From an uncultured Bacteroidales bacterium (lineage in GTDB: Bacteria > Bacteroidota > Bacteroidia > Bacteroidales > Bacteroidaceae): a DNA stretch of 32,823 bases. The DNA lies in contig CACZAN010000042.1 in the NCBI GenBank assembly GCA_902779165.1, positions 1 through 32,823 on the forward strand. The letters are read 5' to 3'. This document shows, piece by piece, positions 14,425 through 32,542 of this stretch (position 1 is its first letter; every line of letters begins with the position of its first letter). Below the pieces are notes generated by a model. The model had not been told where the DNA came from and ran no database searches. It was given only the letters and a program-made list of their open reading frames with translations. Position numbers and translations under genes: made by a program.

Positions 14425-15630
14425 TCACGGTTGGGCCACGAACTGAGCCGGTGTGAAACCCGTCATACGCTTGAAGAGCGTTTGGAAGTAGCTGCGGTCG
14501 TGGAATCCGCAGTGCTGTGCCACCGCTTCATTGCTCCAGTCTGGATGTGCTTTCAAGGTGCGTTTCGCCTCTTCTATGCGCAGCCGCGTCATCCATTCAC
14601 TGTACTTCAGTCCCTGTTTCCGCAACCATAAGGCCAACAGATAACGCGGCACTCCCATATCATCTGCCGTATTGGGCATCTTGATGCCGTCTTTCATGTG
14701 TCCGCCCCTGTTCAGCCACGCCTCTACGGCAGTGTCCACCCGCAGCATTGCCTCTCTTTCTTCCTCTTCAGCTTCCTTCTGCCCGTTAGTGGCGGAGTCT
14801 TCGATCTTAGCGGTTCCCGATGCCTCTTTCCTTTCCCCTTCAATGCCTGTTCTGTTCTCTGTCGCAAACGTTTTCTCGCTTCTCTCACGCACGCTTTCGT
14901 TTTCCTGTTCTTCCTCTTCGGCCTCCTTCATCTTTGCCGGCGCCGAGCTGACGACATAGCTGCAGAAGCTGTCGACCAAATAGAAGATACCCATGAAGGA
15001 GAAGATGCCGTATATGGCCAGCCACGATCCGGAACCGAAGATGAACAATGGTGCCAGCACTGCCAAGAAGGCCAATACAACGACACTCACCTGCATCCAT
15101 CGCAGGATGCCGTCCATGTCGCGGTCATAATAGTCCTGCAGGGCCTGGCGCATACGGCGCAGCTCGCGCAGGTGACGATAGGTGTAGAAAAACTGGATGC
15201 CTGCATAGCAGAGGCTGGCTCCCCATTCTGCCCAGCGCACCTCACGTGCGCCTGCCAGCAATGGCTTGCCGCCCGCATACGTAGAGACGGCTATCATGGT
15301 CATTGCCACAATCCACACGGGCACGCCAATCCATCTTTCCAGCTGGCTGATCTTGCCCTGACGTTGCAGATAGAGCACAGCCAAAGAGAGTAGGGTAGAA
15401 CTGGGGATGAACAACGCCAAGTTCAGCATCACTGCCTGGGTGACACCCATGGCGCGTAGCTTCAGCACATATTGCAACAGAAACTGCAATGCCAGCAGCG
15501 ATGTGCCGCAGACCATCAGCCAGCGCGCCTTGCTCGCCACGGCATTTTCCGCGGCACGGTGGGGCAACAGCAGCAGCTTCATCGACAACAGCGTCAGCAC
15601 CACCACGGCACTAAATTGCATCGTTTCCAT
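14425..15630 (-). CDS. Seven-helix membrane AraC-family regulator
   Basis: A 401-residue regulator that probably senses in or through the membrane and binds DNA in the cytoplasm. Seven hydrophobic segments can be read in the first 230 residues: FSAVVVLTLLSMKLLLL, LMVCGTSLLALQFLLQYVL, MLNLALFIPSSTLLSLAVLY, VPVWIVAMTMIAVSTYA, ASLCYAGIQFFYTY, VSVVVLAFLAVLAPLFIFG and IYGIFSFMGIFYLVDSF. A charged linker follows with two near-identical acidic blocks (EAEEEEQEN and EAEEEEREA). The last 90 residues are an AraC helix-turn-helix pair: PRYLLALWLRKQGLKYSEWM, RIEEAKRTL, and VAQHCGFHDRSYFQTLFKRM with FTPAQF. It is divergent from the surface-protein locus and shares with it an intergenic region with repeated sites, so it probably regulates both directions. 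Confidence 0.88.
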   Translation of the reverse strand: METMQFSAVVVLTLLSMKLLLLPHRAAENAVASKARWLMVCGTSLLALQFLLQYVLKLRAMGVTQAVMLNLALFIPSSTLLSLAVLYLQRQGKISQLERWIGVPVWIVAMTMIAVSTYAGGKPLLAGAREVRWAEWGASLCYAGIQFFYTYRHLRELRRMRQALQDYYDRDMDGILRWMQVSVVVLAFLAVLAPLFIFGSGSWLAIYGIFSFMGIFYLVDSFCSYVVSSAPAKMKEAEEEEQENESVRERSEKTFATENRTGIEGERKEASGTAKIEDSATNGQKEAEEEEREAMLRVDTAVEAWLNRGGHMKDGIKMPNTADDMGVPRYLLALWLRKQGLKYSEWMTRLRIEEAKRTLKAHPDWSNEAVAQHCGFHDRSYFQTLFKRMTGFTPAQFVAQP

Positions 15631-15659
15631 GTTCTATTTCAATTTCACATTTGAGGCTG

Positions 15660-15667
15660 CAAAGGTA
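15660..15667 (-). promoter_or_regulatory. -7 promoter element of the membrane AraC gene
   Basis: Minus-strand TACCTTTG, exact TAnnTTTG match, placing the transcript start about 23 nt before the ATG at 15630. A -33 TTTG at standard spacing is not evident. Confidence 0.6.
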
Positions 15668-15694
15668 CGAAAAAAAGTACAAAATACACTCTTT

Positions 15695-15765
15695 GGTGTT
15701 TAAATTGTCACAAATTAAACACCTTATTGGCTAATTTTAAACACCAATCTCACAAATTAAACACC
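15695..15765. promoter_or_regulatory. Operator-like cluster: four copies of TTAAACACC
   Basis: Plus-strand TTAAACACC stands at 15715-15723, 15737-15745 and 15757-15765, with start spacings of 22 and 20 bases (two helical turns). An inverted copy, GGTGTTTAA, is at 15695-15703. The longer string tcacaaattaaacacc occurs twice. The cluster lies between the two divergent -7 elements at 15660 and 15785. This is the arrangement expected for an AraC-type activator binding direct repeats; the adjacent membrane AraC protein is the natural candidate. Confidence 0.65.
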
Positions 15766-15784
15766 CTCAAGCCTTTTTTTTTGC

Positions 15785-15792
15785 TATTTTTG
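15785..15792 (+). promoter_or_regulatory. -7 promoter element of the sensor/surface-protein locus
   Basis: TATTTTTG, an exact TAnnTTTG match, 20 bases downstream of the last TTAAACACC site. No TTTG is found at the -33 position, so activation by a bound regulator is plausible. Confidence 0.6.
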
Positions 15793-15809
15793 CACCGCAA
15801 TTATAAATA

Positions 15810-16652
15810 ATGGCTTCCATTGGGAGGCAATTAACGCAGATAAAGATGAATATAGAACAACCCCTCTACGACCTGATGTTGCTCATCGCCGGTGGCGTCA
15901 ACATCCTCCTTGCACTAGTTCTGCTGCACAACAACTACTGGTACCAGGCCTACGACGTGTATCATCGTGCCCGCATCATTGTGGCCGTCAACTACATCAT
16001 ATTCGGTATCGGATTCCTGATGCACGCCCACCTCAGCTGGCGAAACTCATGGCCCGAAGGCGCCACGGCACTCTCGCTGAGCTATTTCCACAGCGGCGGT
16101 GTGCTCTTTGGATGGAGCCACACTTCGCTGATGCGACCCGACTACCTCACCCGCCGTGTCGTCGTCCGCGATCTCCTCATCCTAGTCCTCGGCATCACCG
16201 CTTACTGGACGACCGCTATCATGAGGTCTTTGGGCTACGAGCAGCATTTCAATATTTCACTCTTCAACCTTTCATCAATCATCTTCTTCCTCCACGCCTT
16301 CTATATTTCTTTTACATTCTACCGCACCTACTACCGCGTCAGCCGCAACCTGAACGACCGCGTCGCAGATGCTGGCTCTCCGCGCTGGTGGACTCCTGAT
16401 GTGAAGCGCACAGTGCTGAGCTTCCACCACTCCTTCCTCATCGGCTGCCATCTTATTATATTGTTTGGTATAGGCAGCATTGCCATCACCGCCGCCTTCC
16501 CCCACGATATATGGCCCTACACCCTTCTGCTTATCCTCGGCATCATCGTCTTCACCTACATTTTCTACTCCCTCACCGAGTACGGCAATGTCATCGAGGC
16601 TGGAACCAACGCAACAGAGGATGCGGAACTGGATATGAAGAATAAGAATTGA
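15810..16652 (+). CDS. Stand-alone seven-helix membrane sensor-like protein
   Basis: A 280-residue membrane protein without any enzyme or DNA-binding domain. Seven hydrophobic segments are visible: LMLLIAGGVNILLALVLL, IIVAVNYIIFGIGFLMHA, LSYFHSGGVLFGW, LLILVLGITAYWTTAI, SSIIFFLHAFYISFTFY, FLIGCHLIILFGIGSIAI and YTLLLILGIIVFTYIFYSL. The layout, with a charged loop after helix five, parallels the N-terminal half of the divergent AraC regulator, so this looks like the sensor module on its own. An alternative start is the ATG at 15846 (MNIEQPLYDL), which removes 12 polar residues and may be the true one, given the transcript start predicted near 15799. It ends 29 nt before the giant gene and is probably co-transcribed. 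Function as co-sensor or modulator is inference. Confidence 0.75.
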   Translation: MASIGRQLTQIKMNIEQPLYDLMLLIAGGVNILLALVLLHNNYWYQAYDVYHRARIIVAVNYIIFGIGFLMHAHLSWRNSWPEGATALSLSYFHSGGVLFGWSHTSLMRPDYLTRRVVVRDLLILVLGITAYWTTAIMRSLGYEQHFNISLFNLSSIIFFLHAFYISFTFYRTYYRVSRNLNDRVADAGSPRWWTPDVKRTVLSFHHSFLIGCHLIILFGIGSIAITAAFPHDIWPYTLLLILGIIVFTYIFYSLTEYGNVIEAGTNATEDAELDMKNKN

Positions 16653-16681
16653 AATCAGATCAAAACCAATAATAAAATAAT

Positions 16682-19600
16682 ATGAAACGACAATTTATAT
16701 CAATTAACAAGACAGCAATCAATTCTTTGCCATGTAATAAGCCTAGAATTATTGCCATCCGTTGGATGCTCTTCCTGTTTGCCATGCTTCTGACCATTCC
16801 GGCTCAAGGAAAAACTTATGCCGAAAAATCGGAACAGATGCAAGAAAATCGCAAAGGAAAAGGACAATTCACCATCTTGGTGAAACCTGACAGTAAGGAT
16901 GAAGAAGATCCTGATTACTTCTTCAATGATGACCAGTACGGAAACGATGACCACGACACCAAGTTCTGTAATAAGTTCTATTCCAAGTCCTTCTTCGACA
17001 ACGGAAAGGGTAAGTGGTGCTATGAATTTTACTTCGAACAATGGAACGACAAAACAGACTGGGGAGACGAGGAAGACCGCGTCTGTTCTGATACGGAAGT
17101 ATTAGTGCAGAACAACTCCGGGACGTGGAATACTATTGGAACTATTAAGAATGATGAAAAAGGAGAGGTTGATAACAAAGAATCTTCCTGGGGGCTGCTC
17201 GAGAAAAGTGATGATCACGTATACAGGTTCTATCCTTCTCCTCAACTGATAGACGGAGGTTTTAAGGCCATAAAGCTTCAATTCCGCTATTTCTTGGGGC
17301 GCCATGCCTTTGGACATGCGACGGATATGTATTTCCGTCTGGAAGTCACCAAATCGAGGTCTCAGGGATTGGATGTCACCTACACTCCGATGCCCCTTCA
17401 GGTCCAGTGTACTACAGACGAGAACGGCTACCTGAACATGAATGTTTCAAAAGTTCCAGGACATAGTAAAAAGGTGTTCTATGACTGGCGTTATCGTCGT
17501 TCAGATGCATCAATTATATCTAGATCGACGACGGCTGATGTTTCATCGGACTCAGGCTGGAACTCAGGTAAGGATGCGAACACAATCAACGCCACCGATG
17601 CCGCGTCGCGAATACACCTCTCACCATTCTACCGCTATACCATTTTCTTGAGAGGTGGAATGGAAACGGATGCTCCCGATAATAATACTTATACATGGTA
17701 TAATCCCTACAACTCTGATAATGCGTGGGGCGAAAGTGTGGTGGATGCATACGTATATCCCAAAGTGTTGCAGTTCAAGAGTTTCAACCAGTGGGACAAG
17801 ACTGTCACCCTTTCCTGGACAGCTGAGACATCGGTTCAGGATTTCACCACGAACAAAGTCTATTCTCGCAGCAAAAACGGCAAGTGGTTCATCTATCGTA
17901 AAGACTTTGGAGCGAGCAACTCCTCCTATACTCAGATAGGCAATCTCCCTGGAGATACAGAAAACCTTAGCTTCACAGATGCAAAGGTGGATTATGATAA
18001 GCAATATACCTACTGCGTTGTCTTCCTTCCCAATGTGATGCAAGATGATAAACGAAATATCAGCGAGCTCCTCCAATGGTTCGAAAAGGAACTGCAGCCA
18101 ACAGACAGCGTCTCTACCAATCGCGCAGTGGAAGTCAACCTGCAGCAGATTGCTGACCCCGATGTCTCGGGCATCAAGCTGGAATGGACCTACGATATCC
18201 AGCAGACAGGTTCCAAATTCTTTGTTCAGCGCCGCCCGTCAGGGGCCGACAGTTCAGTGGCTTGGGATGAAGTGACCGACATGAACGTAGATGTCTCCCA
18301 GTCGAAAGTCACCTTTGTTGACAAAACGCCCCAGAGTGTCTGCGACATCTATGACTACCGCATCTACACAACGACCCTCGGAACCTCGTTCTTCAGTAAT
18401 GAACTGACGAAGTGTAGCATCACCTCGGGCACACGCATCACCTCTTTCGATGTCACCAAGGGCACGGAATCCAATCAGGTTGTTGTCAAATGGACGGTGC
18501 TACAGAAAGGTCAGGAAAGCACCACCTTTGACATCGAGCGCCGCCGTATCACCAATGGCGTTCCTGGCGATTGGGCTAAGGTGGGTGATGTGAGTGGCAC
18601 CGCCTCCGAGTACACCTACCGCGACGCCAACGTGGAGGCTGGCAGTTACTATGAATACCGCGTCCTCATCGAGAACAAGGACTGTGAGACTGGCGAATCC
18701 AAGTACGGCGGCTTCACCAGTATCGGCTACAGTCAGTCACGAGGCACTATCACTGGACATATTAGCTACGGCACGGGCACCTCTGTTTCCGACGTGAGGT
18801 TGAACCTCATCAAGAGCGGCACCGACAGCAACGACAGCGACCTGCAGCGACAGTTCTCCTCTATACGCATCAGTGGTAACAACACTGGCGGACTCAGCTG
18901 GAAACCCGATTCTGCACGCTATGCCGCCAAGCTTACCAGCAACAACCCGCTTTCCTTCCAATTGTGGATAGCTCCTGAAGCTAACAAAGACAATCTGCCC
19001 ATTGTCTCTTTCAGCAAAGACCTCAGCCTTAGTCTTAAAAAGAACGGCCCCAACGATTATGACCTGATATTCAGTGGCGATGGTTCTACGACCGTTGTCG
19101 GTCAGGTGCCAGCACTCCACTTCACTCACGTGACAGCTATCTACGATGGTGCCGGCAAATGGCGGTTCATCCTGAATGGCGACTTGGACAATGCCCAGAC
19201 GACTCAACGCAGTGGAAGCTGGATACTGAAGGATTCCTTGCATGTGGGTGCCGACAAAAACAATGCATTCAACGGTCTGCTGGATGACATCCGCTTATGG
19301 TCGCGCGCCCTCTCTGACAAAGACGTTGCCACGAACTACAATCGTGTGCTGGGCGGAACCGAGAACGGAATGGAATTCTACTGGCCCATGGACGAAGGCA
19401 TCAAAGGCAACACTTTCGATGTGTCCCGTCAGAACGGAATCTTCAATTGCAACCATCCCACCGTGGCACCCAACGCAGAGCCCAGCTCCATCACTCCTTC
19501 GGATCTGAAGCTCTACGGACTCACCGATGTGGACGGCAACTACATCATCCGGGGCATCCCCTTCGACGAAGGCGGCACCAACTACAAACTGCTGCCCGAG

Positions 19601-22600
19601 TTCGGTATCCACGAATTCCAGCCCTCGTCACGCTCGCTCTACGTCAGCCCCTCGTCGCTCACGGCGAACAATGTGGATTTCACAGACCGCTCCAGTTTCC
19701 CCATGCGCGGGTACATATATTATAAAGATACTAATATCCCAGTCAAGGGCATCTACCTTTATATCGACGGCGAGCTGGTGACTTCAGGAGGAACGGTGGC
19801 TCAAACCGACGCTGATGGCTACTACGAAATCTCCGTGCCCATCGGCAAGCACTTCATCGAGGCCAAACAGACAGGTCACCACATGGTGAATGCAGGCCGC
19901 TGGCCCACGTCAGGAACCTACGACTTCCAGGCCGCCGTACACCAGAACTTCACAGACTCCACCCTCGTCAATTTCTGCGGACGTGTGGCAGGTGGCGAGA
20001 TCCAGGACGCTAAGCCCGTCGGATTCGGCAAATCGCTGAACAACATCGGCACGGCCACCATCCGCCTCTCGCTGAACAATCCTAACTTCAGCTTCAACTG
20101 CGAGGAGGGTACCAAGAATGCCAACGACCAGGAACGCCTCTTCCTGGCACAGAACCCCGACACCATTAAGAGCCGCACCTGGGCTGGCGCCAAGCTGGAA
20201 GAACAGGACAATACAAGCTTCATCTATATCTCTACCGACCCAAAGACCGGTGAGTTCTCGGCAATGTTGCCGCCGCTCAAGTACCGTGTGGACGAAATTT
20301 CCATCCCCACGAATCCCGACGTCACATTCACAGACCTCACGGAGATTGATATGACAAATGTCATTGCCTACCAGGTGGATACACTCTTCTCTGTCACCAA
20401 CAATACCGAGAATGACTCAATCGTCATCGCGTATGACCTCTATAAGTACAATCAGAAGATGGTCAGCACCTGGTATGCCCAACCCCAGCTGGAAATCACC
20501 GAGACCAGTGACTCCCTGCACATAGGATACTACGGTATGCAGTACTGGCGGAACTATGAAGACGAGTTCGGCAAGGTGGATAGCATCGAGATTTGGAACG
20601 CCACGAATGGTCTGCACTACGACTATGACTATCCCGTCTTCCGTATGGGAGACCCATACTCTTTCAAGATCAGAGGCTATGAGGAGTACATCAACTATGA
20701 CTCCGGATCACCCGTGAAAGACTACGTTCCGATGAGCAGTCAGGTGCTCACCATCAACAACGAATTGAGCGACAATCAGGCTATTGTCACCGAAGACCAT
20801 CCCGACAAGGACTTGAAGCAGGGCGACGTGTACATGCTCAAATCCAACCAGCTCGCTCTGGACGACAACGGCGAGTTCATCTATCAGTGGAATGCGGGCC
20901 TGCCGAACCCGACGGCACCCTACACGCGCCATCTGGGCATTACCTACACGCGCCACAGACGTACCTGCTCGCAGGAAGTCTTTGATGCCTATGTCTTCGG
21001 CTCTCTGCCTCTGGGCAACAACTTTGTCACCAAGGGTCCCGATCAAGTGCTGATGGTGCTGCGTGACCCACCGGGTTCTAACTCTTATACCTCCTGGACC
21101 AGTGGAAAAGTAACTACCGAGATAGAGACAAGTGTCAACAATGGTTTCGATTTTGGAATTGGTGTTAACTTTGAGGTCATTTATGGAAAGAATCTTACAC
21201 AGGCTGACGGCATTGGAGTATCAATCGTCACTTCAAATGATATAGCTAACAAAATAAATGTAGGCGGAGAATTCGAGTTATCCTATAACAAAACCAATTC
21301 CACAGTCTATACCGTATCTTCAACAGAGACTGTTTCCACCAGTGCGGACCCGGAATTTGTGGGAGCCAACGGTGATGTCTATATCGGAACTTCCACCAAT
21401 CTCCTCATCGGTAATTGCAAGAAGGTGGGATTCTTCCGCGAAACCATGAACAGCGATTTCGTGGTCAAGGACAGCGTCGCTATGTGTATGAGCGACAGCA
21501 TCACCACTGCTTTCAAATATACCCAGAGTGAAATAGAAAATAAGCAGATTCCCGAATGGAAGAAGATGCGCGCATCCATACTGACCTCTGTGGATTCCAA
21601 GGAAGACGCAGAATCATTCCCCAATCCCGGCAAGGATCCCATCTATGTCACTTGGCAGGACAAGTTCAGCGATGAATGGATCGAAGGAACTAACTATCGG
21701 GTCGTTTACGGCACAGACTCCACGACCGTCAGAGTGGATAGTGTGCAATACCTGACAAGCCAAATAGACCTTTGGCGACAGGTGATGGCGGCCAATGAGG
21801 AAGATAAAGTGTTAACTATGGAATATATGAACGAGGTGCAATCAGATAGTTTGAGGAATATTTCCTTTGACAGCGGTACCTCTTACAACTATACCGAGAG
21901 AAATGACACGACAGAAACCAAAACTCGTCAAGTAGATTATGCTGTGGGATTATTGGGCGACGTCGCTTTGGGATTAGAACTGAAAGCTTTGGAACATTTT
22001 GGATTAAATATCACAATAAAGGGTAAATTCAAATACAAAGGTAATGTCACTATAGGCAGTCCCGATGACAACTATACTAACACAGCAGAGTTCAGCTATC
22101 ACTTTGCCGATTCCAGTTTTGGCTCTGACTACACCGTGAACATCTACAATTCCAAGTGTGGATGGTCCGACTTCTTCTCCGTCTTGGGCGGACAGACCTA
22201 CTGTCCCTACGAAGGCGAAGTCAGAACCAAATACTACAAACCTGGCGAGAAGGTTCTCAGCAATGCCACAGAAGCGATGCAGAATCCGCAGATACGCATC
22301 TCCAACGGAGCGCAGAACCCCTCTTCTCATGCCGTGATTTCTGATGTGGCCGCAGGTGAGTCGGCACTCTTCACACTCACACTCACCAACGATACCGAGA
22401 TAGATGGCGCAATGACCTACGTTCTGGGCGTGAAAGACGACACCAACTCACAAGGACTACAGTTCAGCGTGGATGGATCCAAGATTTCTGGCGGACGTTC
22501 CTTCGTCGTCGAGGCCGGACAGAGCATCACCAAGACTCTGGAAGTGAAGCAGACGGATGTATCTGTTCTGGATTACGAAAACATCTGCCTCACCTTTGCC

Positions 22601-25600: not shown

Positions 25601-26395
25601 AGCATCGTCATCCAAGGTGCCGAATGCAAGCCCTCGCAGACCCCCGTCAATATCAATCCACGATGGAACTGGATTGGCTTCATCCCGCAGTCTGCCATGC
25701 AAATCAACTATGCTCTGGCTGGCAGCGGAGCCGCACAGGGCGACTACATCAAGTCCAAGTCGCAGTTCGCCATCTACGGCCCCTACGGATGGGAAGGCAA
25801 CCTCAAGACCCTCGAACCCGGCAAGGGCTACATGTACTTCTCACAGGCCCCGCAGACCATCACCTTCCATTATCCCGAGGTGACGGATGCCAACCGCGCT
25901 CGTGCCGCTGTCAAGTCCAAATCGCCCGAATACTACTTCCATCCCGTGGGCTCAGAGAACTATCCCGACAACATGTCTGTCGTCCTCCAGCTCATTGCCG
26001 ACGGACAGCCCCTCGACACCTGTGAGGTGGCAGCATTCATCGACAACGAATGCCGTGCTACGGCCAAGGCCGACGACGGTCTCTACTACCTCATGATCCA
26101 GGGAGAGGGGAGTGGACAGCCCATAGAACTTCGCACCATCTATCAGGATCAGGTCATCGTCATCGACCAGTCTTTGGCCTTCCGCAGCGACGAGAATGTA
26201 GGTCTGCCCTGGAACCCCTACACCATAGACCTCGACCGCGTCACCAGTGTTCGCGAGCCCGAAGCACAGCCTTCCACCGCCGATGCGAAGTACTTCCTGC
26301 CCAACGGCATACAGGTGCAAGCCTCCAACCTGCGCAAGGGACAGGTATATATCAGAGTTGACAAGAATGGCAACGTAACAAAATACAGGAAATAA
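16682..26395 (+). CDS. Giant multidomain surface protein with three LamG-like domains
   Basis: A 3237-residue exported protein. The signal peptide is long (hydrophobic WMLFLFAMLLTIPAQG, cleavage near residue 43). In order, as read: fibronectin-III-like regions at about 362-450, 493-565 and 585-670; a carboxypeptidase-regulatory-like fold beginning GTITGHISYG at about 686; LamG 1 (about 750-890, DDIRLWSRALSD); the rest of that fold with TDVDGNYIIRGIPFDEGG at about 945; a second such domain (1004-1080, TDADGYYEISVPIG); a Ser/Thr-rich region at 1490-1900 ending GGQTYCPYEGE; LamG 2 (2170-2337) and LamG 3 (2381-2550, DEVRIWKGVL); a BACON-like Ig domain (2680-2778, LPTWLTTD); two related ligand-type modules and two GWNWIS-type repeats (2793-3175); and a tail with KGQVYIRVDKNGNVTKYRK. 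It probably binds glycans or host/plant polymers at the cell surface. It ends 3 nt before the next start codon. Confidence 0.88.
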   Translation: MKRQFISINKTAINSLPCNKPRIIAIRWMLFLFAMLLTIPAQGKTYAEKSEQMQENRKGKGQFTILVKPDSKDEEDPDYFFNDDQYGNDDHDTKFCNKFYSKSFFDNGKGKWCYEFYFEQWNDKTDWGDEEDRVCSDTEVLVQNNSGTWNTIGTIKNDEKGEVDNKESSWGLLEKSDDHVYRFYPSPQLIDGGFKAIKLQFRYFLGRHAFGHATDMYFRLEVTKSRSQGLDVTYTPMPLQVQCTTDENGYLNMNVSKVPGHSKKVFYDWRYRRSDASIISRSTTADVSSDSGWNSGKDANTINATDAASRIHLSPFYRYTIFLRGGMETDAPDNNTYTWYNPYNSDNAWGESVVDAYVYPKVLQFKSFNQWDKTVTLSWTAETSVQDFTTNKVYSRSKNGKWFIYRKDFGASNSSYTQIGNLPGDTENLSFTDAKVDYDKQYTYCVVFLPNVMQDDKRNISELLQWFEKELQPTDSVSTNRAVEVNLQQIADPDVSGIKLEWTYDIQQTGSKFFVQRRPSGADSSVAWDEVTDMNVDVSQSKVTFVDKTPQSVCDIYDYRIYTTTLGTSFFSNELTKCSITSGTRITSFDVTKGTESNQVVVKWTVLQKGQESTTFDIERRRITNGVPGDWAKVGDVSGTASEYTYRDANVEAGSYYEYRVLIENKDCETGESKYGGFTSIGYSQSRGTITGHISYGTGTSVSDVRLNLIKSGTDSNDSDLQRQFSSIRISGNNTGGLSWKPDSARYAAKLTSNNPLSFQLWIAPEANKDNLPIVSFSKDLSLSLKKNGPNDYDLIFSGDGSTTVVGQVPALHFTHVTAIYDGAGKWRFILNGDLDNAQTTQRSGSWILKDSLHVGADKNNAFNGLLDDIRLWSRALSDKDVATNYNRVLGGTENGMEFYWPMDEGIKGNTFDVSRQNGIFNCNHPTVAPNAEPSSITPSDLKLYGLTDVDGNYIIRGIPFDEGGTNYKLLPEFGIHEFQPSSRSLYVSPSSLTANNVDFTDRSSFPMRGYIYYKDTNIPVKGIYLYIDGELVTSGGTVAQTDADGYYEISVPIGKHFIEAKQTGHHMVNAGRWPTSGTYDFQAAVHQNFTDSTLVNFCGRVAGGEIQDAKPVGFGKSLNNIGTATIRLSLNNPNFSFNCEEGTKNANDQERLFLAQNPDTIKSRTWAGAKLEEQDNTSFIYISTDPKTGEFSAMLPPLKYRVDEISIPTNPDVTFTDLTEIDMTNVIAYQVDTLFSVTNNTENDSIVIAYDLYKYNQKMVSTWYAQPQLEITETSDSLHIGYYGMQYWRNYEDEFGKVDSIEIWNATNGLHYDYDYPVFRMGDPYSFKIRGYEEYINYDSGSPVKDYVPMSSQVLTINNELSDNQAIVTEDHPDKDLKQGDVYMLKSNQLALDDNGEFIYQWNAGLPNPTAPYTRHLGITYTRHRRTCSQEVFDAYVFGSLPLGNNFVTKGPDQVLMVLRDPPGSNSYTSWTSGKVTTEIETSVNNGFDFGIGVNFEVIYGKNLTQADGIGVSIVTSNDIANKINVGGEFELSYNKTNSTVYTVSSTETVSTSADPEFVGANGDVYIGTSTNLLIGNCKKVGFFRETMNSDFVVKDSVAMCMSDSITTAFKYTQSEIENKQIPEWKKMRASILTSVDSKEDAESFPNPGKDPIYVTWQDKFSDEWIEGTNYRVVYGTDSTTVRVDSVQYLTSQIDLWRQVMAANEEDKVLTMEYMNEVQSDSLRNISFDSGTSYNYTERNDTTETKTRQVDYAVGLLGDVALGLELKALEHFGLNITIKGKFKYKGNVTIGSPDDNYTNTAEFSYHFADSSFGSDYTVNIYNSKCGWSDFFSVLGGQTYCPYEGEVRTKYYKPGEKVLSNATEAMQNPQIRISNGAQNPSSHAVISDVAAGESALFTLTLTNDTEIDGAMTYVLGVKDDTNSQGLQFSVDGSKISGGRSFVVEAGQSITKTLEVKQTDVSVLDYENICLTFASDCQNDISSINGVVRDSCTLDVHFKPSSSPVTLKTGSYVVNTANSGTLKLTLTDFNRAFQGLKSMGVEYKADGDVQWNRVQRFVFAQADSTEQGDIVVPATGDVSLLLDMSDNNSYPDRTYIFRAYTETPYGNEGIRVYSDEVSVVKDMHLPTAIGTPQPADGILHAGDDIVLEFNEDIIPGYVNASNVLVTGKVNKQPTTHEVSLHLSGDDPTASTSSDFYMQGNSTVAMWLKYTQPGTLFTHCTGDNQFKLAIDADNHLTVTTNNTTQTAARLTLPKDEWMYLVYAFNKNNSALDILVQYGTQTDSIRATFSGARSMNQVVYANDKRLFLGGDALEADIHDLRIYGICRNPLEVATEKYSTSSIYTSGLMAHWPMDEGQGTKARDLRNDAHPLLLTAADWHIDGTNYAATVDANKQQHLDLSIASATTDYNESYVLEFWFKADGDMKGKTLFQAGNKYANNLRLFTHTDGTLYFQYDVNIKPVAPEGFDINGGWHHFALNVMRGISASVAIDGKRTAVFTETEVPPLEGARIVMGAGYELPVFDNYTYKDCMTGAFDEVRIWKGVLKPEVVQANMYQCVDTVLAAVQGLTAYYPMEATVMINNVETKAPSDKDMAPGQIMAGSITGNFDLNAFTLNAPPLRSAPEVQTVINSTTVSDRKVFLQLQPVSMAEIEGTTLDFTVTEIFDRNGNKSQPITWQAYIHQNTLSWGQDSVTCIKNYGDASSFQVDIVNSGKATEYYTISGLPTWLTTDNAQGEVAPESRQAIRFDVLPTAAVGTYDVNLTLTGNNEIAEPLRLVLKVKGMAPDWAVADDAGYDEQMNLVGQVIIDGFVNENPESRLAAFIDTRCVGVAQPEKARGSYFVPMTIYGTEKDSGKDISFKFWDASTGTTYVALNTDLYVQFYKDSMKGSYSHPVVLTNTDELEQNIDVAAGWNWISTYVQPDTLLPLTSVLVADGFLQGDIIKDKNNASYYDGAAWSSAKLNTIQPATMYKLCVQQPLSIVIQGAECKPSQTPVNINPRWNWIGFIPQSAMQINYALAGSGAAQGDYIKSKSQFAIYGPYGWEGNLKTLEPGKGYMYFSQAPQTITFHYPEVTDANRARAAVKSKSPEYYFHPVGSENYPDNMSVVLQLIADGQPLDTCEVAAFIDNECRATAKADDGLYYLMIQGEGSGQPIELRTIYQDQVIVIDQSLAFRSDENVGLPWNPYTIDLDRVTSVREPEAQPSTADAKYFLPNGIQVQASNLRKGQVYIRVDKNGNVTKYRK

Positions 26396-26398
26396 ATA

Positions 26399-27676
26399 AT
26401 GAATCAGTCAATCAAAACATGCGTGTTGGCAGCAGTCTGCGGGGTACTCTTCCCCGCAGCAGCTGCAGCACAGAGCTACCAGCTCGTTACATCTGCTGAA
26501 CAGTTGGAGAGCGGCAAGCGATACCTCATCGTGGCACAACAAAACATCGACACCTACTACGTATGGAATGGACTCGATGTGAGTCAAGAAAAGGGTCTGG
26601 CAACCACCATTTCAAAACCCGTTGGCAACATCATTACCCCCACGGCAGCTGTAGTCCCTGTGGTGTTGGAACAAGGTGGCGACTATTGGAAGATAATCGA
26701 CACGGCGAGCAGTAATAAATATGTGGGCTACGAAAAGTCCAGCAATCACCTTGTCGGCTCAGACTCTCCAAGTTCCGATAATATTGAATGGACTATTTCG
26801 TTTTATGAAGGAACGACGTCGGTGTACTATAATAATAATGGCTATCATTATCTGAAGTTCAACTACAACTCTGGAATTACCCCATTATTCCGACCCTATG
26901 GATTATCTGAAAATACCGACATTGCCCTCTATAAAGAGACCGCCTTCACACTCTTCGATACAGGCGACAACACCGCCGCTATCACAGTTGCTGAGGGGCA
27001 CTCGTGCAATGTCACGCTCCAGAATCGCGTCCTCTACAAAGACGGCGCATGGAACACACTGTGCCTGCCCTTTAACCTTACCATCAGCGGTTCTGTGCTC
27101 GACGAAGCTGACGTGCGTAAGCTCGAAAGTGCAAACTTCAGCAAGGGCGAACTGACCCTGAACTTCTCTGCCCAGGGAGAGGTGACCGAGCTGATAGCCG
27201 GCACACCTTATATCATTAGATGGACCAGCGGAGACGATCTCGAGAACCCCACCTTCACGGGTGTCTCCATCGACCAAACAATGAGGAACAGCGTCTGCAA
27301 CTTGGGCGGCGGCAGAAGTATCACCTTCGTGGGCAACTACAGCCCCGTGACGCTTGATGCCGGCGACAAGAGCTGCCTCTACCTCGGCGCTGAGAACAAG
27401 CTCTACTGGCCAAGTGTAGAGCGCCCCATCAACGCCTTCCGCGCCTACTTCCAGCTCGATGGCATCACTGCCGGCGACCCCGCAGCCGCCATCAGGGCTT
27501 TTGTCATAAACCTCGGCGACGAGGAAACAACAGGCATCAGCCTCACCTCCGACACCGCCCGCCTGGGAGAGGAGACGGCCGACGCATGGTACGCCATCGA
27601 CGGTCGCCGCCTGAGTAGCAAGCCTACGGCAAAGGGTCTGTTCATCCACAACCATCGTACCGTAGTGATAAAGTGA
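26399..27676 (+). CDS. Secreted protein sharing its C-terminal module with the next gene
   Basis: A 425-residue exported protein with a signal peptide (MNQSIKTCVLAAVCGVLFPA, cleavage after AAAAQ). The N-terminal half (LVTSAEQLESGKRYLIVAQQ, YWKIIDTASSNKYVGYE, YHYLKFNYNSGITPLF) looks like an Ig/lectin-type beta domain seen in Prevotella secreted proteins. The second half begins with NRVLYKDGAWNTLCLPFNLT and contains FVGNYSPVTLDAGDKSCLYL, AENKLYWPSVERPINAFRAY and the sorting-type tail WYAIDGRR to VVIK. The second half is also in the 1487-residue protein and part of it is nearly identical in DNA. It starts 3 nt after the giant gene stop, so it is in the same transcript. Exact role is unknown; the context suggests a cell-surface companion. 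Confidence 0.8.
   Translation: MNQSIKTCVLAAVCGVLFPAAAAAQSYQLVTSAEQLESGKRYLIVAQQNIDTYYVWNGLDVSQEKGLATTISKPVGNIITPTAAVVPVVLEQGGDYWKIIDTASSNKYVGYEKSSNHLVGSDSPSSDNIEWTISFYEGTTSVYYNNNGYHYLKFNYNSGITPLFRPYGLSENTDIALYKETAFTLFDTGDNTAAITVAEGHSCNVTLQNRVLYKDGAWNTLCLPFNLTISGSVLDEADVRKLESANFSKGELTLNFSAQGEVTELIAGTPYIIRWTSGDDLENPTFTGVSIDQTMRNSVCNLGGGRSITFVGNYSPVTLDAGDKSCLYLGAENKLYWPSVERPINAFRAYFQLDGITAGDPAAAIRAFVINLGDEETTGISLTSDTARLGEETADAWYAIDGRRLSSKPTAKGLFIHNHRTVVIK
27335..27473 (+). repeat. 139-bp near-identical duplication, copy 1
   Basis: Matches 31858-31996 with three differences in 139 bases and no gaps (offset 4523). It encodes NYSPVTLDAGDKSCLYLGAE onward to QLDGITA. Flanking sequence in the two genes is far less similar, so the block has been copied or converted recently. 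Confidence 0.92.
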
Positions 27677-27711
27677 GAAAAAGCCAAATTATAGTCAAAT
27701 AACAAGAAAAA

Positions 27712-30700
27712 ATGACAAAACAACCAAAAAATCTTTTATCCCCCAGACACTCGGGGGTACCAACAATCAGAGACACATGGCAGCGCCTGAGTATGCTGCT
27801 AATCGTCATGCTGCTCACTGCCACGACGGCGTGGGCAGAGCAGACCGTGACATTGAGCCTGAGCCCGGCGGAAGTCAACATCGGTGACGAGCTGATAATC
27901 AACGCAGCGGCCGATGGCTTCAGCGGCGACGTGGAGTGGGAATGGCTCGGGGATGACAACGTCACAGTCAATGAACCTGAACCGCCCTCTCTCTATGACG
28001 TCATAGTCAGGACAGACGGCAACGGCACGGCTGAGGCCGCCCCCAACGAAGCTGTCCCGGGCGAGACGATCACGCTGACGGTGACCCCGAAACAGGGCTA
28101 CATGCTGAGCGCCATCACAGTTAACAATGGTGAAGTGGAAGTCACCGGAAACTCGTTTGTTATGCCGAAGTCGAATGCCTTCGTGGATGTCACGTTCGAA
28201 CCCATATACTACATTGATGCCAACGGCACGATGCACTATGCCGAAGAAGCTACGGTGCTCGATGGCAGCGAGACTGTGCTCAATGCAGGCTGGTATGTGG
28301 TGAACAGCAATCTCACCTATGATCACGCCCTGCAGTTGGGCTCCGGCACGATAAATATCATCCTCGCTGACGGCAAGAAGATGAGCATCGGCACCGAGGA
28401 CAGTTATATACATAATAGCAGTGGCATCGTGCCTACTGATTTGAGCACAATCAAATCTGACCTGTGCATCTATGGTCAGACCGCAGGCACCGGCAGTATG
28501 GAGGTGTTTTCCGATAACGGCATTTCCTATATCAATTCCTACACGCAGCATGGAGGCAATGTCAAAAGCATCACCTACGCAACCAGTAGTGCTTTTTCTA
28601 TCAATTATTTTCCTGCGAATGATAATTCGACCTGCAACTTCACACTCAACGGCGGTACAGTAGTTGCCATTGCTGACTGTCAAGGTGTCGAAGCAGCAAA
28701 TAATATCATCATCAACGGCGGAACGCTGGATGCCACCGCCCGGGGAAACAACGTCACTATTGTAGCCTTAATGGCAAATAATAACATCATCATCAACGGC
28801 GGACAGGTCACTGCCACCAGCAACGGTAATAGCAAAGGCATCAATGCCAAAGGCGGCAGCACCACCCTCGCCGGTGGTAGCGTCACGGCCAGCAGCTATG
28901 AGGGTACTGTCATCGTCGCCAACGGCTGGACCTATGCTGCCGACGAGGATGACAATACATACTCCGGCACGCTCGAGAACAGCGACATCGCCAATAAGAC
29001 GCTGCGTCCCAAGACCTACACCACCTACTACATCGATGCCGACGGCACGCGGCACTACGTCAAAGACGCCACGGTGCTCGATGGCAGCACTACTGAGCTT
29101 TCAGCAGGCTGGTATGTGGTGAAGGGCAACGTTGAGTATAGCAGCAAACTCTCTTTCCGCGGCGATGTAAACCTCATCCTTGCCGATGGTGCCAGCCTCA
29201 CCGTAAACACAAATGATGGCGATGCCATCGATATGCAGTATGGTTCGCTGACCATCAATGGGCAATCACAGGGCACTGGACAGCTCCATGCCAGCAGCCA
29301 CAATGGTAATGGCATCTATGCCACAGGCAACATCACCGTCAATGGCGGCAGTGTCGAAGCCCGCGCCCAAAATTATAGCATCTTTGCCACAGGCGGCAAC
29401 ATCATCCTCAATGGCGGTAGTGTAGAAGCCAGCAGCACAAATCCTTATGGCATCTATGCCGAAGGCGGCAGCACCATCCTCGCCGGTGGTAGCGTCAAGT
29501 CTAACATCTATCAGGGTACAGTCACCGTTGCCACAGACTTCACCTATGCTGCCGACGAGGATGACAACACCTACTCCGGCACGCTCGGCAACAGCGCCAT
29601 CGCTGGCAAGACGCTGCGTCCCAAGACCTACACCACCTACTACATCGATGCCGACGGCACGAGGTACGACGACGTAACCGCCACGGTGCTCAATGGTTCG
29701 AACAGAGAGCTTTCAGCAGGCTGGTATGTGGTGAAGGGCAACGTAAACTATAGCTACTTGCTCTCTTGCACCGGCGGCGATGTAAACCTTATTCTCGCCG
29801 ATGATGCCAAACTTGTAGTAACTGAAAGTCGTATGCGTGCCATCGGAGTGGAATTCTGTTCGTTGACCATCTATGGACAGGCTCAGGGCACTGGACAACT
29901 CCATGCCAGTACCGAAAGTGGTGATGGCATCAATGCCAATCAGGGCAATATCACCATCAATGGCGGCAGGGTAGGAGTCAGCGGCGTAAATTGTGGCATC
30001 AGCGCCGAGAATGGCAATATCACCATCAATGGCGGCATTGTCGTAGCCAGTGGCATGACTAATAATGGCATCAATGCCACAAACGGCACCATCCTCGCCG
30101 GCGGTAGCGTCATGGCCAACAGCTACGGGGGCACCGTCACCATCGCCACGGGCTTAACCTATATCGACAATAATGAGAATACCTACACCGGCACGCTCGA
30201 CAACGAGGCAATCGCCGGCAAGAGGCTGAGTCCCAAGACTAACATCGTTACGTTCGACTTCAACTATGAAGATGGCGAAGACCCCGAGGTGCAGATTGTG
30301 CTTTCGGGCAGGACGGCTACCGAGCCTACTGCTCCGATACGTACGGGCTACACCCTCAAATGGAAACTGGGCGAGGAAGACTATGACTTCGACACACCCG
30401 TGACCAGCGACATCGCGCTCACCGCTGTGTGGACAGCGAATAACTACTTCGTGCAGTTCAACGCCAACGGCGGCTCGGGCGACGCAATGGAGCCGATGGA
30501 GCTGACCTACGACGGCGAATGTACGCTCCCAGCTTGCACCTATACCGCTCCCGATGGCAAGGCCTTCAAAAATTGTTGGAACACCGCAGCCGACGGCAGC
30601 GGCACCAGCTACGACGACGAGGGAAGGGTGCGCAACCTGACCGGTGAGCCTAACGGCACTGTCGTGCTCTATGCGCAGTGGGGCAAGGACATCGCCACAT

Positions 30701-32175
30701 GCACGGCTACCGTGCCTGGCCAAACGCTGGACGGCACCAGTTATATCTTCTATAAATTTGAATCTGCCAATTCTGGTAATGTTGAGACTGGTACGACGGT
30801 GTATGATGGCGAGACGTTGCTCACCGTGGGCACGGACTACGTGTTCGACCAGGTGTATTTCTACGGCACGGAAAACTCTTCCACAGACGAGACCAATAAG
30901 GTAGGCGACCGTTTCACCGTAGTGATTAAGGGTATTGGCGACTATGCCGGCACGACTACTGCTGACTTCTATATCGTCAGCCCGGAGGCCAACGGCGAAT
31001 GGGGCGACCTTGCGTGGGCCATCGATGCTGACGGCGACTTCACCATCAGCAAGAAAGATGGTGTGGAGGGCAACGTGGCCATGAATGAGACTACTAAGGG
31101 TGACTATCCTTGGTATGACAAGGCCGGATACATCAAGACCATCACCATCGGTGAGGGCATCACCACTGTGGCAGCCAATGCCTTCTGCCGCGAGACGGAG
31201 ATGAACGTTTATGGCAACGTTCACACACTAACCCTGCCTGAGTCGCTGACCTCCATCGGCGAGTTCGCATTCGCCTACTGCACTGGTCTTAACATCGACT
31301 TGGCAACCCTCGGGGATATCGAATACGATGCCACTGCTTTCAGCTATATCAACAGCCTCACGGGCACACTCTACGACAATGCTGACAACACGAAGACCAT
31401 CTCCGTGATGGCCCAGACCAACAGTAACGACGTGACCCTCACAGGACGTACGTTATATAAGGATGGCGACTGGAATACGCTGTGCCTGCCGTTCGATGTC
31501 AGTGAGGGCAACAACATCCTCGACGGAGCCACCATCAAGGAACTCGACGTCGAGAACTACTACGACGCGAATGGTGAGTTCTACACAAAGCTCGACCATG
31601 AGAATGCCTTCCGCACCGGCTTCGAGGCCGAGACAGGCACGCTGCGCCTCTACTTCAAGAATGTAGAAGCCGACGGCAGCGGTGTGGTGCTGCAAGCCGG
31701 AACGCCTTACCTCATCAAGTGGGACAAGGCCGAGGGCTACGATGCCGCCGACCCCGCCACCCGCGACATCACCGGCGATCACGTCTTCTCGGACGTGAAG
31801 CTTCTCTCATTGCCCAACAACGTGACGAGCAAGGACCACAACGTCACTTTCTGTGGTAACTACAGCCCCGTGACGCTTGCTGCCGGCGACAAGAGCAGCC
31901 TCTACCTCGGCGCTGAGAACAAGCTCTACTGGCCAAGTGTAGAGCGCCCCATCAACGCCTTCCGCGCCTACTTCCAGCTCGATGGCATCACCGCCGATGT
32001 CCGCGCCTTCGTGATGAACCTCGACGATGACAACGAGGCCACCGGCATCAGCCTCACTCGTCAAGAAGGGGAGAAGACCGACGCGTGGTACACCCTCGAC
32101 GGTCTGCGCATGGCTTCAAAGCCCGCGAAGAAGGGAATGTATATTTATAAAGGTAAGAGAATCGTGATTAAGTAG
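27712..32175 (+). CDS. Large repeat surface protein (beta-helix, InlB-type, BspA-type modules)
   Basis: A 1487-residue exported protein; the signal peptide has an extended n-region (core LSMLLIVMLLTATTAWA, cleavage about 43). Order: Ig-like domain (about 45-85); a module with TVTPKQGYMLSAITVNNGEV (about 115-165); three related units each opening YYIDADGT or YYIDANGT and containing runs of NIIINGG/NITVNGGSVEA, a beta-helix of the Cthe_2159 carbohydrate-binding type (about 165-843); two InlB/Listeria-Bacteroides-type repeats ending LTAVW and VLYAQW (844-990); an MBG-like module (996-1090); a short BspA-type leucine-rich stretch (KTITIGEGITTVAANAF, about 1140-1210); and the LYKDGDWNTLCLPF module with sorting-type tail shared with the preceding gene. 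It is probably a cell-surface adhesin or glycan binder. It lies 35 nt downstream of the preceding gene. Confidence 0.88.
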   Translation: MTKQPKNLLSPRHSGVPTIRDTWQRLSMLLIVMLLTATTAWAEQTVTLSLSPAEVNIGDELIINAAADGFSGDVEWEWLGDDNVTVNEPEPPSLYDVIVRTDGNGTAEAAPNEAVPGETITLTVTPKQGYMLSAITVNNGEVEVTGNSFVMPKSNAFVDVTFEPIYYIDANGTMHYAEEATVLDGSETVLNAGWYVVNSNLTYDHALQLGSGTINIILADGKKMSIGTEDSYIHNSSGIVPTDLSTIKSDLCIYGQTAGTGSMEVFSDNGISYINSYTQHGGNVKSITYATSSAFSINYFPANDNSTCNFTLNGGTVVAIADCQGVEAANNIIINGGTLDATARGNNVTIVALMANNNIIINGGQVTATSNGNSKGINAKGGSTTLAGGSVTASSYEGTVIVANGWTYAADEDDNTYSGTLENSDIANKTLRPKTYTTYYIDADGTRHYVKDATVLDGSTTELSAGWYVVKGNVEYSSKLSFRGDVNLILADGASLTVNTNDGDAIDMQYGSLTINGQSQGTGQLHASSHNGNGIYATGNITVNGGSVEARAQNYSIFATGGNIILNGGSVEASSTNPYGIYAEGGSTILAGGSVKSNIYQGTVTVATDFTYAADEDDNTYSGTLGNSAIAGKTLRPKTYTTYYIDADGTRYDDVTATVLNGSNRELSAGWYVVKGNVNYSYLLSCTGGDVNLILADDAKLVVTESRMRAIGVEFCSLTIYGQAQGTGQLHASTESGDGINANQGNITINGGRVGVSGVNCGISAENGNITINGGIVVASGMTNNGINATNGTILAGGSVMANSYGGTVTIATGLTYIDNNENTYTGTLDNEAIAGKRLSPKTNIVTFDFNYEDGEDPEVQIVLSGRTATEPTAPIRTGYTLKWKLGEEDYDFDTPVTSDIALTAVWTANNYFVQFNANGGSGDAMEPMELTYDGECTLPACTYTAPDGKAFKNCWNTAADGSGTSYDDEGRVRNLTGEPNGTVVLYAQWGKDIATCTATVPGQTLDGTSYIFYKFESANSGNVETGTTVYDGETLLTVGTDYVFDQVYFYGTENSSTDETNKVGDRFTVVIKGIGDYAGTTTADFYIVSPEANGEWGDLAWAIDADGDFTISKKDGVEGNVAMNETTKGDYPWYDKAGYIKTITIGEGITTVAANAFCRETEMNVYGNVHTLTLPESLTSIGEFAFAYCTGLNIDLATLGDIEYDATAFSYINSLTGTLYDNADNTKTISVMAQTNSNDVTLTGRTLYKDGDWNTLCLPFDVSEGNNILDGATIKELDVENYYDANGEFYTKLDHENAFRTGFEAETGTLRLYFKNVEADGSGVVLQAGTPYLIKWDKAEGYDAADPATRDITGDHVFSDVKLLSLPNNVTSKDHNVTFCGNYSPVTLAAGDKSSLYLGAENKLYWPSVERPINAFRAYFQLDGITADVRAFVMNLDDDNEATGISLTRQEGEKTDAWYTLDGLRMASKPAKKGMYIYKGKRIVIK
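28930..29132 (+). repeat. Tandem unit of the beta-helix protein, conserved start of unit 2
   Basis: This 203-base block recurs at 29542-29744 with high identity. The offset is exactly 612 bases (204 codons). It encodes AADEDDNTYSGTLENSDIAN and the following YYIDADGT opening. A weaker third copy of the border begins near 30160. Confidence 0.8.
29542..29744 (+). repeat. Tandem unit of the beta-helix protein, conserved start of unit 3
   Basis: Second copy of the 612-base period seen at 28930-29132. The best conserved stretch is the hinge between helix units, whereas the NGG-rich body differs more. Confidence 0.8.
31858..31996 (+). repeat. 139-bp near-identical duplication, copy 2
   Basis: Partner of 27335-27473, three differences in 139 bases. 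It sits in the same position of the shared C-terminal module of the 1487-residue protein. Confidence 0.92.
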
Positions 32176-32236
32176 GTGAGCGAAATATGTTGCACCAAAG
32201 AGACATAAATTACAAATATAGTTAACAAGTAGTATT

Positions 32237-32419
32237 ATGAAAAAGAATTATATCAAACCCACAACCACTGTAATCAGAATTGAAACAGAAAGTAGGCTGC
32301 TCTCTGCCAGCCAAGGAGTGACCTCCGTTGAAAGTAACACAGACATCAGCTACGGCGGCGGCGGCGATCAGGCTGCCCGCGTCAAGGCCAACAGCGTAGA
32401 ATGGGACGACTGGGAGTAA
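32237..32419 (+). CDS. Small protein of the MKKxYxKP...LLS...W-acidic type
   Basis: Sixty residues: MKKNYIKPTTTVIRIETES, then RLLSASQGV, a Gly-rich middle (YGGGGDQAARVKANS) and the end VEWDDWE. It has no signal peptide in the classical sense and no Cys. Small Bacteroidota proteins with an MKK-x-Y-x-x-P start, a central LLS and an aromatic-acidic end are common beside secreted-protein genes, from my general knowledge; their role is not established. It follows the large repeat protein by 61 nt and precedes a strong terminator, so it closes the transcript. The reading frame and position support it being real. Confidence 0.7.
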   Translation: MKKNYIKPTTTVIRIETESRLLSASQGVTSVESNTDISYGGGGDQAARVKANSVEWDDWE

Positions 32420-32497: not shown

Positions 32498-32542
32498 ATC
32501 CCCGCCGCAGGACCCAACACCTGCGACGGGGATTCTTCTTTT
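32498..32542 (+). terminator. Intrinsic terminator of the surface-protein locus
   Basis: A 14-bp stem with one mismatch (32498-32511 with 32520-32533; arm atccccgccgcagg), 8-base loop, followed by tcttctttt. It lies 79 bases after the small-protein stop. Confidence 0.8.

Follow-up and report, generated by a model that had tools for sequence, protein, structure and literature searches.

On balance, the divergent genes described here appear to encode a membrane-embedded one-component activator for large exported proteins and, as a separate protein, its homologous membrane partner. The window, i.e., the whole stretch of 32,823 nucleotides that was analysed, is contig C42 within a 3.59-Mb assembly of an uncultured Bacteroidales bacterium. 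The named relatives of this source assembly that carry the lone seven-helix (7TM) protein belong to Prevotella, Prevotellaceae and Bacteroidales.

Activation, DNA binding, membrane pairing, a ligand and feedback are what we infer, and the proposed process would run as follows. The 7TM-AraC protein would respond to a signal located within the inner membrane or outside it, and its cytosolic AraC domain would occupy three direct sites with spacings of 22 and 20 bp. The last of these, at about the place of the -33 box, would recruit RNA polymerase to a TAnnTTTG promoter, so that large exported proteins would be switched on next door as well as elsewhere in the genome. Where an inverted site is present, the same array would point towards the promoter of the regulator itself as well. 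The lone 7TM would be the first product of the activated operon, would join the regulator in the membrane via the related helix bundle, and could act with its short tail on the regulator's cytosolic part, as a co-sensor and a source of feedback.

The regulator and its seven-helix relative

The genes and coordinates given in a preliminary description of this DNA were confirmed, as was its view that two divergent genes encode membrane proteins of the same seven-helix layout, one with an AraC domain and the other devoid of an output domain. The regulator P0001, a 7TM-AraC membrane transcription regulator of 401 residues, is encoded on the reverse strand (14425..15630) and consists of seven helices, an acidic linker and a C-terminal HTH_18 domain (Pfam, E 6.4e-15). 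Its AlphaFold model (pLDDT 85.9) likewise comprises seven membrane-length helices, the linker and the HTH. The AraC-type HTH_18 places it in the AraC/XylS family, and AraC-family domains are its top Foldseek matches. The source genome holds two copies of the regulator and P. communis three.

The lone 7TM protein P0002 is encoded on the forward strand (15810..16652) and ends in a cytosolic tail that reads ...TNATED. Since 16 of 25 relatives begin level with its Ile15 (starts taken mechanically), its true start is probably Met13, at 15846, rather than 15810. The AlphaFold model shows seven helices (pLDDT 94.0; for both proteins, helix numbers were counted from the AlphaFold helix lists), and P0002 has zero Pfam or NCBIfam matches at E<=1 and no output domain. 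HisKA, HATPase_c and receiver domains, which mark a hybrid two-component system (HTCS), are absent from P0001 and P0002 according to Pfam; nor does either protein match a model of the known 7TM sensor families HisKA_7TM and 7TMR-DISM (Pfam, E<=1).

The 7TM regions of the two proteins are homologous. Two profiles, one of 50 lone-7TM sequences and one of 24 regulators, match each other over most of the bundle (E 1.7e-11, 97.3%); smaller profiles, which were tried first, gave a weaker match (68.8%). Solved structures match both bundles only weakly in Foldseek, the best match of the P0002 model reaching E 5.7e-3 with a TM-score of 0.47 and none reaching E<=0.001, and a relation of the lone 7TM to GPCRs or rhodopsins was not adopted on the strength of such matches. 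Spread by plasmids was dropped as an idea, as P0002 is unmatched among plasmids at E 1e-5, and so was viral spread, a query with this single protein having given no confirmed match among viral contigs.

The promoter array between the divergent genes

TAnnTTTG is the -7 promoter box type of Bacteroidota, and a likely box of this type, TACCTTTG (15660..15667, reverse strand), belongs to the regulator's own promoter. The four TTAAACACC sites with helical spacing that had been described earlier do stand beyond it: the inverted site I (15695..15703, reverse strand) and, on the forward strand, the direct sites D1 (15715..15723), D2 (15737..15745), 22 bp after D1, and D3 (15757..15765), 20 bp after D2 and at about the place of the -33 box. 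The end of D3 lies 19 bp from the likely -7 box of the operon promoter, TATTTTTG (15785..15792, forward strand). All four sites are exact matches, and I forms an inverted repeat with D1. Activation from direct sites that abut a promoter is the usual reading for AraC-type proteins.

The single TTAAACACC 9-mer was dropped as evidence, since with one mismatch allowed it occurs five times in the window against 4.89 expected; what argues for these putative sites is their arrangement. Across the source genome, the exact pair pattern gives five matches in three places (control, 0), namely in the window, on contig C11 and, with shorter spacing, beside glycosyltransferase-like genes. Furthermore, 29 promoters, comprising 25 that lie next to a lone 7TM or regulator from the set, or next to its operon, that of C11 and three further ones of P. 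communis, align without gaps when anchored by hand on the -7 box. The mean identity among their three direct sites is 0.71, versus 0.28 when shuffled and 0.32 at most in 500 shuffles. This set includes near-copies (e.g., L045/L047 and L055/L056) and inexact -7 boxes (L048, L049 and one of P. communis). An identity of at least 0.55 among direct sites is reached by 26 of the 29, L038, L050 and L053 fitting poorly, and the inverted site is found at its fixed place (identity of at least 0.5) in only 17.

The core of the sites varies by locus, being TTAAACACC here and TTTTACACACC, TTTTGTACACC or GTCACCCC elsewhere. A one-residue insertion in the HTH region goes with the site core (a TG start at 13 of 18 sites versus 1 of 45, the rows being related). 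Once the 7TM part is accounted for, the HTH and the sites do not covary significantly across 21 loci (partial Mantel p 0.063), and HTH-site covariation was for this reason not taken as proven.

Other tandem repeats were seen as well. Upstream of the triple array, a second repeat with a 22-bp period, AAAAGCTATCATATTACA, occurs at L039 (618-660 and 9756-9820), and at L044 (393-480) a repeat of the same period, ATTRCACTGTAATTTGGGC, lies upstream of the triple array of the giant operon; could these repeats at two giant operons be sites of another regulator? On contig C16, four TATATACGT repeats exactly 22 bp apart (L020, 433-507) lie upstream of an exported-type protein of 3583 residues and are perhaps a similar design with another core and another regulator.

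The operon and its exported-type products

Exported type here means a signal-peptide-like start or the usual C-terminal tail, as judged by eye. Behind the lone 7TM, and likewise on the forward strand, follow genes for three such proteins: one of 3237 residues with three Laminin_G_3 stretches (16682..26395), which has a homologue on contig C11; one of 425 residues (26399..27676); and one of 1487 residues (27712..32175) with InlB-type and List-Bact repeats, in which a BspA-type LRR match falls just below the Pfam cut-off. The giant proteins are presumably located at the cell surface. A small protein of 60 residues (32237..32419), whose family is often found after exported proteins of this kind, completes the series, and the gaps between the operon genes measure 29, 3, 35 and 61 bp.

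The strong terminator that had been proposed for the operon end is supported by a likely intrinsic terminator on the forward strand (32498..32542), in which 14-base arms with one mismatch are followed by TTCTTCTTTT; a 141-nt segment there folds at -50 kcal/mol (z -4.48). A terminator scan found no forward-strand site in the operon gaps, with a scan total of 14 versus 14.6 by chance, and it also misses the operon end, where the stem and TTCTTCTTTT are visible.

Residues 178-425 of the 425-residue protein are common to the 1487-residue protein, with 46% identity. The shared C-terminal stretch of about 250-290 residues (26930-27676 and 31324-32175 in the window) also occurs in exported-type proteins of contig C20, P. 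communis, L039 and L044. Pfam finds nothing there in the 425-residue protein, and the stretch is a candidate sorting or anchoring domain. The small protein of the window has zero Pfam or NCBIfam matches, and small proteins that start with approximately MKK-x-Y-x-x-P recur behind large exported-type proteins (window, 32237-32419; L037, L039, L045, L047, L057, L076 and L080). Eleven of 14 small frames follow a frame of at least 200 residues within 600 bp (duplicates L030 and L032 dropped), and ten of these 11 preceding frames carry the typical C-terminal tail.

Predicted targets elsewhere in the genome

The preliminary description had viewed the locus as self-contained, which does not hold: the promoter of the window recurs on contig C11 with the identical 22-20-19 layout and there precedes a frame of 3296 residues that matches the window giant over 3017 columns with 28% identity and has no regulator next door, and, judged by sequence, distant targets exist in other genomes as well. 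The pattern of sites, 19 bp and TAnnTTTG, searched at up to three mismatches, gave 44 matches in 29 of 33 regulator-carrying genomes (control, 0). As these genomes were selected for the regulator or the pair, and the pattern itself was derived from promoters of this kind, matches beside regulators are expected, and the informative ones are the distant ones.

With its own core, the complete genome of P. communis yields four matches (control, 1), each in front of either the lone 7TM or an exported-type protein (1411, 1246 and 1199 residues), the last two without a regulator next door. Regulator-less targets in three other genomes comprise 1498, 776 and at least 2401 residues, plus a remnant of 112 residues. 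When ten extra places were read, eight looked like promoters, and the other two, L189 and L191, were rejected as such. Seven of the eight precede exported-type frames (one of them the 112-residue remnant), L184 has no clear target, and four of the promoter-like places are without an adjoining regulator. The short pattern, which omits the -7 box, is unspecific by itself, since in 399 genomes of the family it gave 19 matches versus 10 in the control. Eight of the 19 show promoter anatomy (two in G000, five in G233 and one in G281) and 11 do not; among these 11, a match in G623 borders on a regulator frame, yet TAnnTTTG is missing at a distance of 19.

Conservation of the pair and of the regulator alone

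Among 51 named loci with a lone 7TM, the regulator is divergent from it within 500 bp in 16, as it is in the window and on contig C20. In four further loci (L035, L040, L042 and L046), a single gene for about 620-655 residues stands between the two. At L039 and L044 the lone 7TM comes after a giant operon or the small gene of one; the locus includes only part of the regulator in the former, and in the latter the regulator is cut off. An AraC gene on the strand of the lone 7TM is found in three of the 51 loci (one broken), a histidine kinase gene after it in 12, a fusion of the lone bundle to a histidine kinase in six and to AraC in two; all 20 kinase genes, kinase fusions and AraC fusions were tested with Pfam. 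Six loci are cut or otherwise arranged (L036, L058, L067, L073, L075 and L085). These groups cluster strongly on the tree, with eight changes versus a shuffled mean of 26.6, and the fusions of lone-bundle relatives to AraC or histidine kinases mark the bundle as a signalling module.

In 13 of 17 pairs (the 16 loci and the window), the next gene on the same strand is of the exported type, two of these 13 being cut by the contig end. This neighbourhood would suit a lone 7TM that serves the exported proteins in secretion, processing or anchoring and stands outside regulation. We regard that reading as improbable, since the lone 7TM persists in L041, L043 and L054 without an exported gene next door, signalling outputs are fused to its relatives, and a regulator but no lone 7TM accompanies many exported-type genes of this kind. 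The same three loci and L038, where a histidine kinase comes next, are the exceptions among the 17 pairs. In P. communis, one of the 13, the giant lies behind an opposite-strand gene and has its own upstream region, in which no triple array was seen. Between the lone 7TM and the giant of P. communis (L030, 6931-8028), a diverged, multi-helix-looking protein is encoded whose end is weakly AraC-like in a home-made HTH model (E 3e-8), with no Pfam match. The gene after the second lone 7TM of the source genome falls in a masked stretch (L016, 9309-16000; L017, 1-2851), and a 3909-residue fusion of that protein with its giant was rejected, as the frame enters the masked stretch, where the letters are N.

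The regulator's 7TM is present in 24 of 399 family genomes and the lone-7TM family in eight (E 1e-10), with three weak matches (E about 1e-11 to 7e-11) and one that is split in two. Three family genomes hold both, and 21 of the 24 regulator genomes are without a lone-7TM match. Among 17 cases of a regulator without a lone 7TM that were read, 13 have an exported-type frame opposite, the exceptions being L138, L139, L140 and L150; L137 and L147 end at the gene, and the 17 cases leave out five matches, four of them weak. The order-level relatives L087-L089 face no exported-type genes. With the regulator so often found in the absence of the lone 7TM, and in that case mostly directly opposite an exported-type gene, the lone 7TM seems to be an add-on, for which 21 of 24 family genomes show no general need; these sequence comparisons suggest that the core consists of the regulator and its target promoter, with the lone 7TM as an extra component. 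That the five genes form a fixed set is likewise not supported: four of 17 pairs lack the exported gene next door, the P. communis giant is separated as stated above, and most regulator-carrying family genomes give no lone-7TM match.

In genome G687, a copy of the lone 7TM that is lacking its middle (C56, 14107-15489; L134) lies beside a full-length regulator, perhaps a loss in progress. This copy and the AraC-fused relatives are what one would expect if an ordinary membrane one-component regulator were accompanied by a functionless, decaying duplicate that has lost its HTH. Such decay is very improbable in our view, because the lone 7TM has open frames of normal length in 16 divergent pairs and a mean pairwise identity of 58% that exceeds the 45% of the regulator's 7TM across the same 22 loci.

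Residues that mark the lone 7TM

The lone 7TM carries three intramembrane histidines, H104, H162 and H214, which are kept in 26, 26 and 25 of 26 AraC-side rows and also in all four AraC-fused or same-strand rows (fused proteins were trimmed prior to alignment). Counted among the AraC-side rows are five with a regulator that lies apart from the lone 7TM, is not divergent or was not seen (L036, L039, L044, L052 and L058) as well as the four with a gene between (L035, L040, L042 and L046). None of the 20 kinase-clade rows (18 with the kinase seen, plus L073 and L075) has any of the three histidines, their places being taken by Y or F, by Y and by D; H94 is kept in all 50 lone-7TM rows. As the kinase-linked rows form one clade, this residue switch may be a single event. 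At the terminus, E270 and D271 occur in 26 and 24 of the 26 AraC-side rows versus 2 and 0 of the remaining 24; the tail residues T266 and A268 are common in the remaining copies too (12 and 10 of 24), which leaves the terminal E-D as the only specific part. Genome G660, which has no regulator match at E 1e-10, holds an orphan lone 7TM that is missing the ATED end.

Across 22 loci, lone-7TM distances correlate with those of the regulator's 7TM (r 0.74) and of its HTH (r 0.65), with partial correlations of 0.51 and 0.26, respectively; both proteins are shared by descent in related species, and hence correlated distances are no proof of contact. Together, homology, neighbourhood, the tail and the correlated distances suggest that the two proteins pair in the membrane. 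A fair rival, if an unlikely one, is that the lone 7TM forms inactive hetero-oligomers with the regulator and limits its own operon by titration, as pure negative feedback with no role in sensing. Its position as the first gene behind the promoter, the missing output domain and the existence of the regulator without it would agree with titration; a pure titrator, however, need not keep the three AraC-associated histidines or the specific terminal E-D, and lone-bundle relatives are the input parts of kinases and AraC proteins. Between pairing and titration, the comparative evidence leans towards pairing.

Relation to known systems and significance

AraC/XylS activators such as AraC itself bind direct half-sites separated by about two helical turns, of which the last adjoins the promoter. 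The system presented here resembles them in its AraC-type HTH and in the spacing of its direct sites, including a last site next to the promoter, and differs from them in its membrane-bound 7TM input, its three direct sites plus, here, one inverted site, and its TAnnTTTG promoter. The 7TM sensor histidine kinases of L059-L063 and L070 have the same lone-7TM family as their input part; they differ in their kinase output, in forming a separate clade and in the Y or F/Y/D residues that replace the three histidines.

In the excerpted text of PMC10269533, TTRs are described as proteins with a TM region and a DNA-binding domain in one chain that are enriched in Bacteroidota, the majority being single-pass and about 72% of those in the genus Bacteroides being hybrid kinases. 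P0001, with HTH_18 plus seven modelled membrane-length helices in one chain, is such a TTR (PMC10269533); the main text of that source does not mention AraC, HTH_18 or Prevotella. Co-component systems such as VtrA/VtrC and ToxR/ToxS likewise combine a membrane-tethered DNA-binding protein with an output-less membrane partner encoded together and, according to the excerpts of PMC9214523, are proposed to sense as a pair; the VtrA/VtrC type has a membrane helix, periplasmic input domains, a lipocalin-like co-sensor and partly overlapping genes (PMC9214523). A membrane DNA-binding protein and a separate partner encoded together were found in the window, on contig C20 and in 16 of 51 loci. VtrA/ToxR-type periplasmic and lipocalin-like domains are absent from the two models, which are seven-helix bundles with no strand in either. 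Unlike VtrA/VtrC, the partners described here are homologous, both have seven helices, the output is AraC, the genes are divergent and the phylum is Bacteroidota. TTRs and co-component pairs are thus already known kinds, and topology, partner homology, output domain and phylum are what differ here; we found no account of the regulator/lone-7TM pair in the open-licence literature, several of the queries being broad.

More tentatively, and with somewhat less than even confidence, we propose that the AraC-bearing and the tail-only homologous seven-helix proteins form a polytopic co-component receptor which, in Prevotellaceae of the rumen and gut, controls the expression of giant exported proteins as one regulon. 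The histidine triad of such a receptor may serve either to bind the signal, be it a metal, haem or a proton, or to determine how it is passed on, and the lineage-specific core, combined with the fixed promoter geometry, would allow several such receptors to operate within a single cell.

To our knowledge, it is still largely an open question in what way Bacteroidota of the gut and rumen select from their very large surface-type proteins, and a probable membrane gene switch with a sister that lacks the DNA-binding part is described here for gut and rumen bacteria related to Prevotella. Fixed promoter geometry, lineage-specific cores and a membrane regulator family make its regulons predictable from sequence. 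The residue switch between AraC-linked and kinase-linked copies offers a way into the question of how a single bundle can work with two outputs. If true, the combination of a regulator with an output-less homologue would extend co-component sensing from periplasmic domains to multi-helix bundles.
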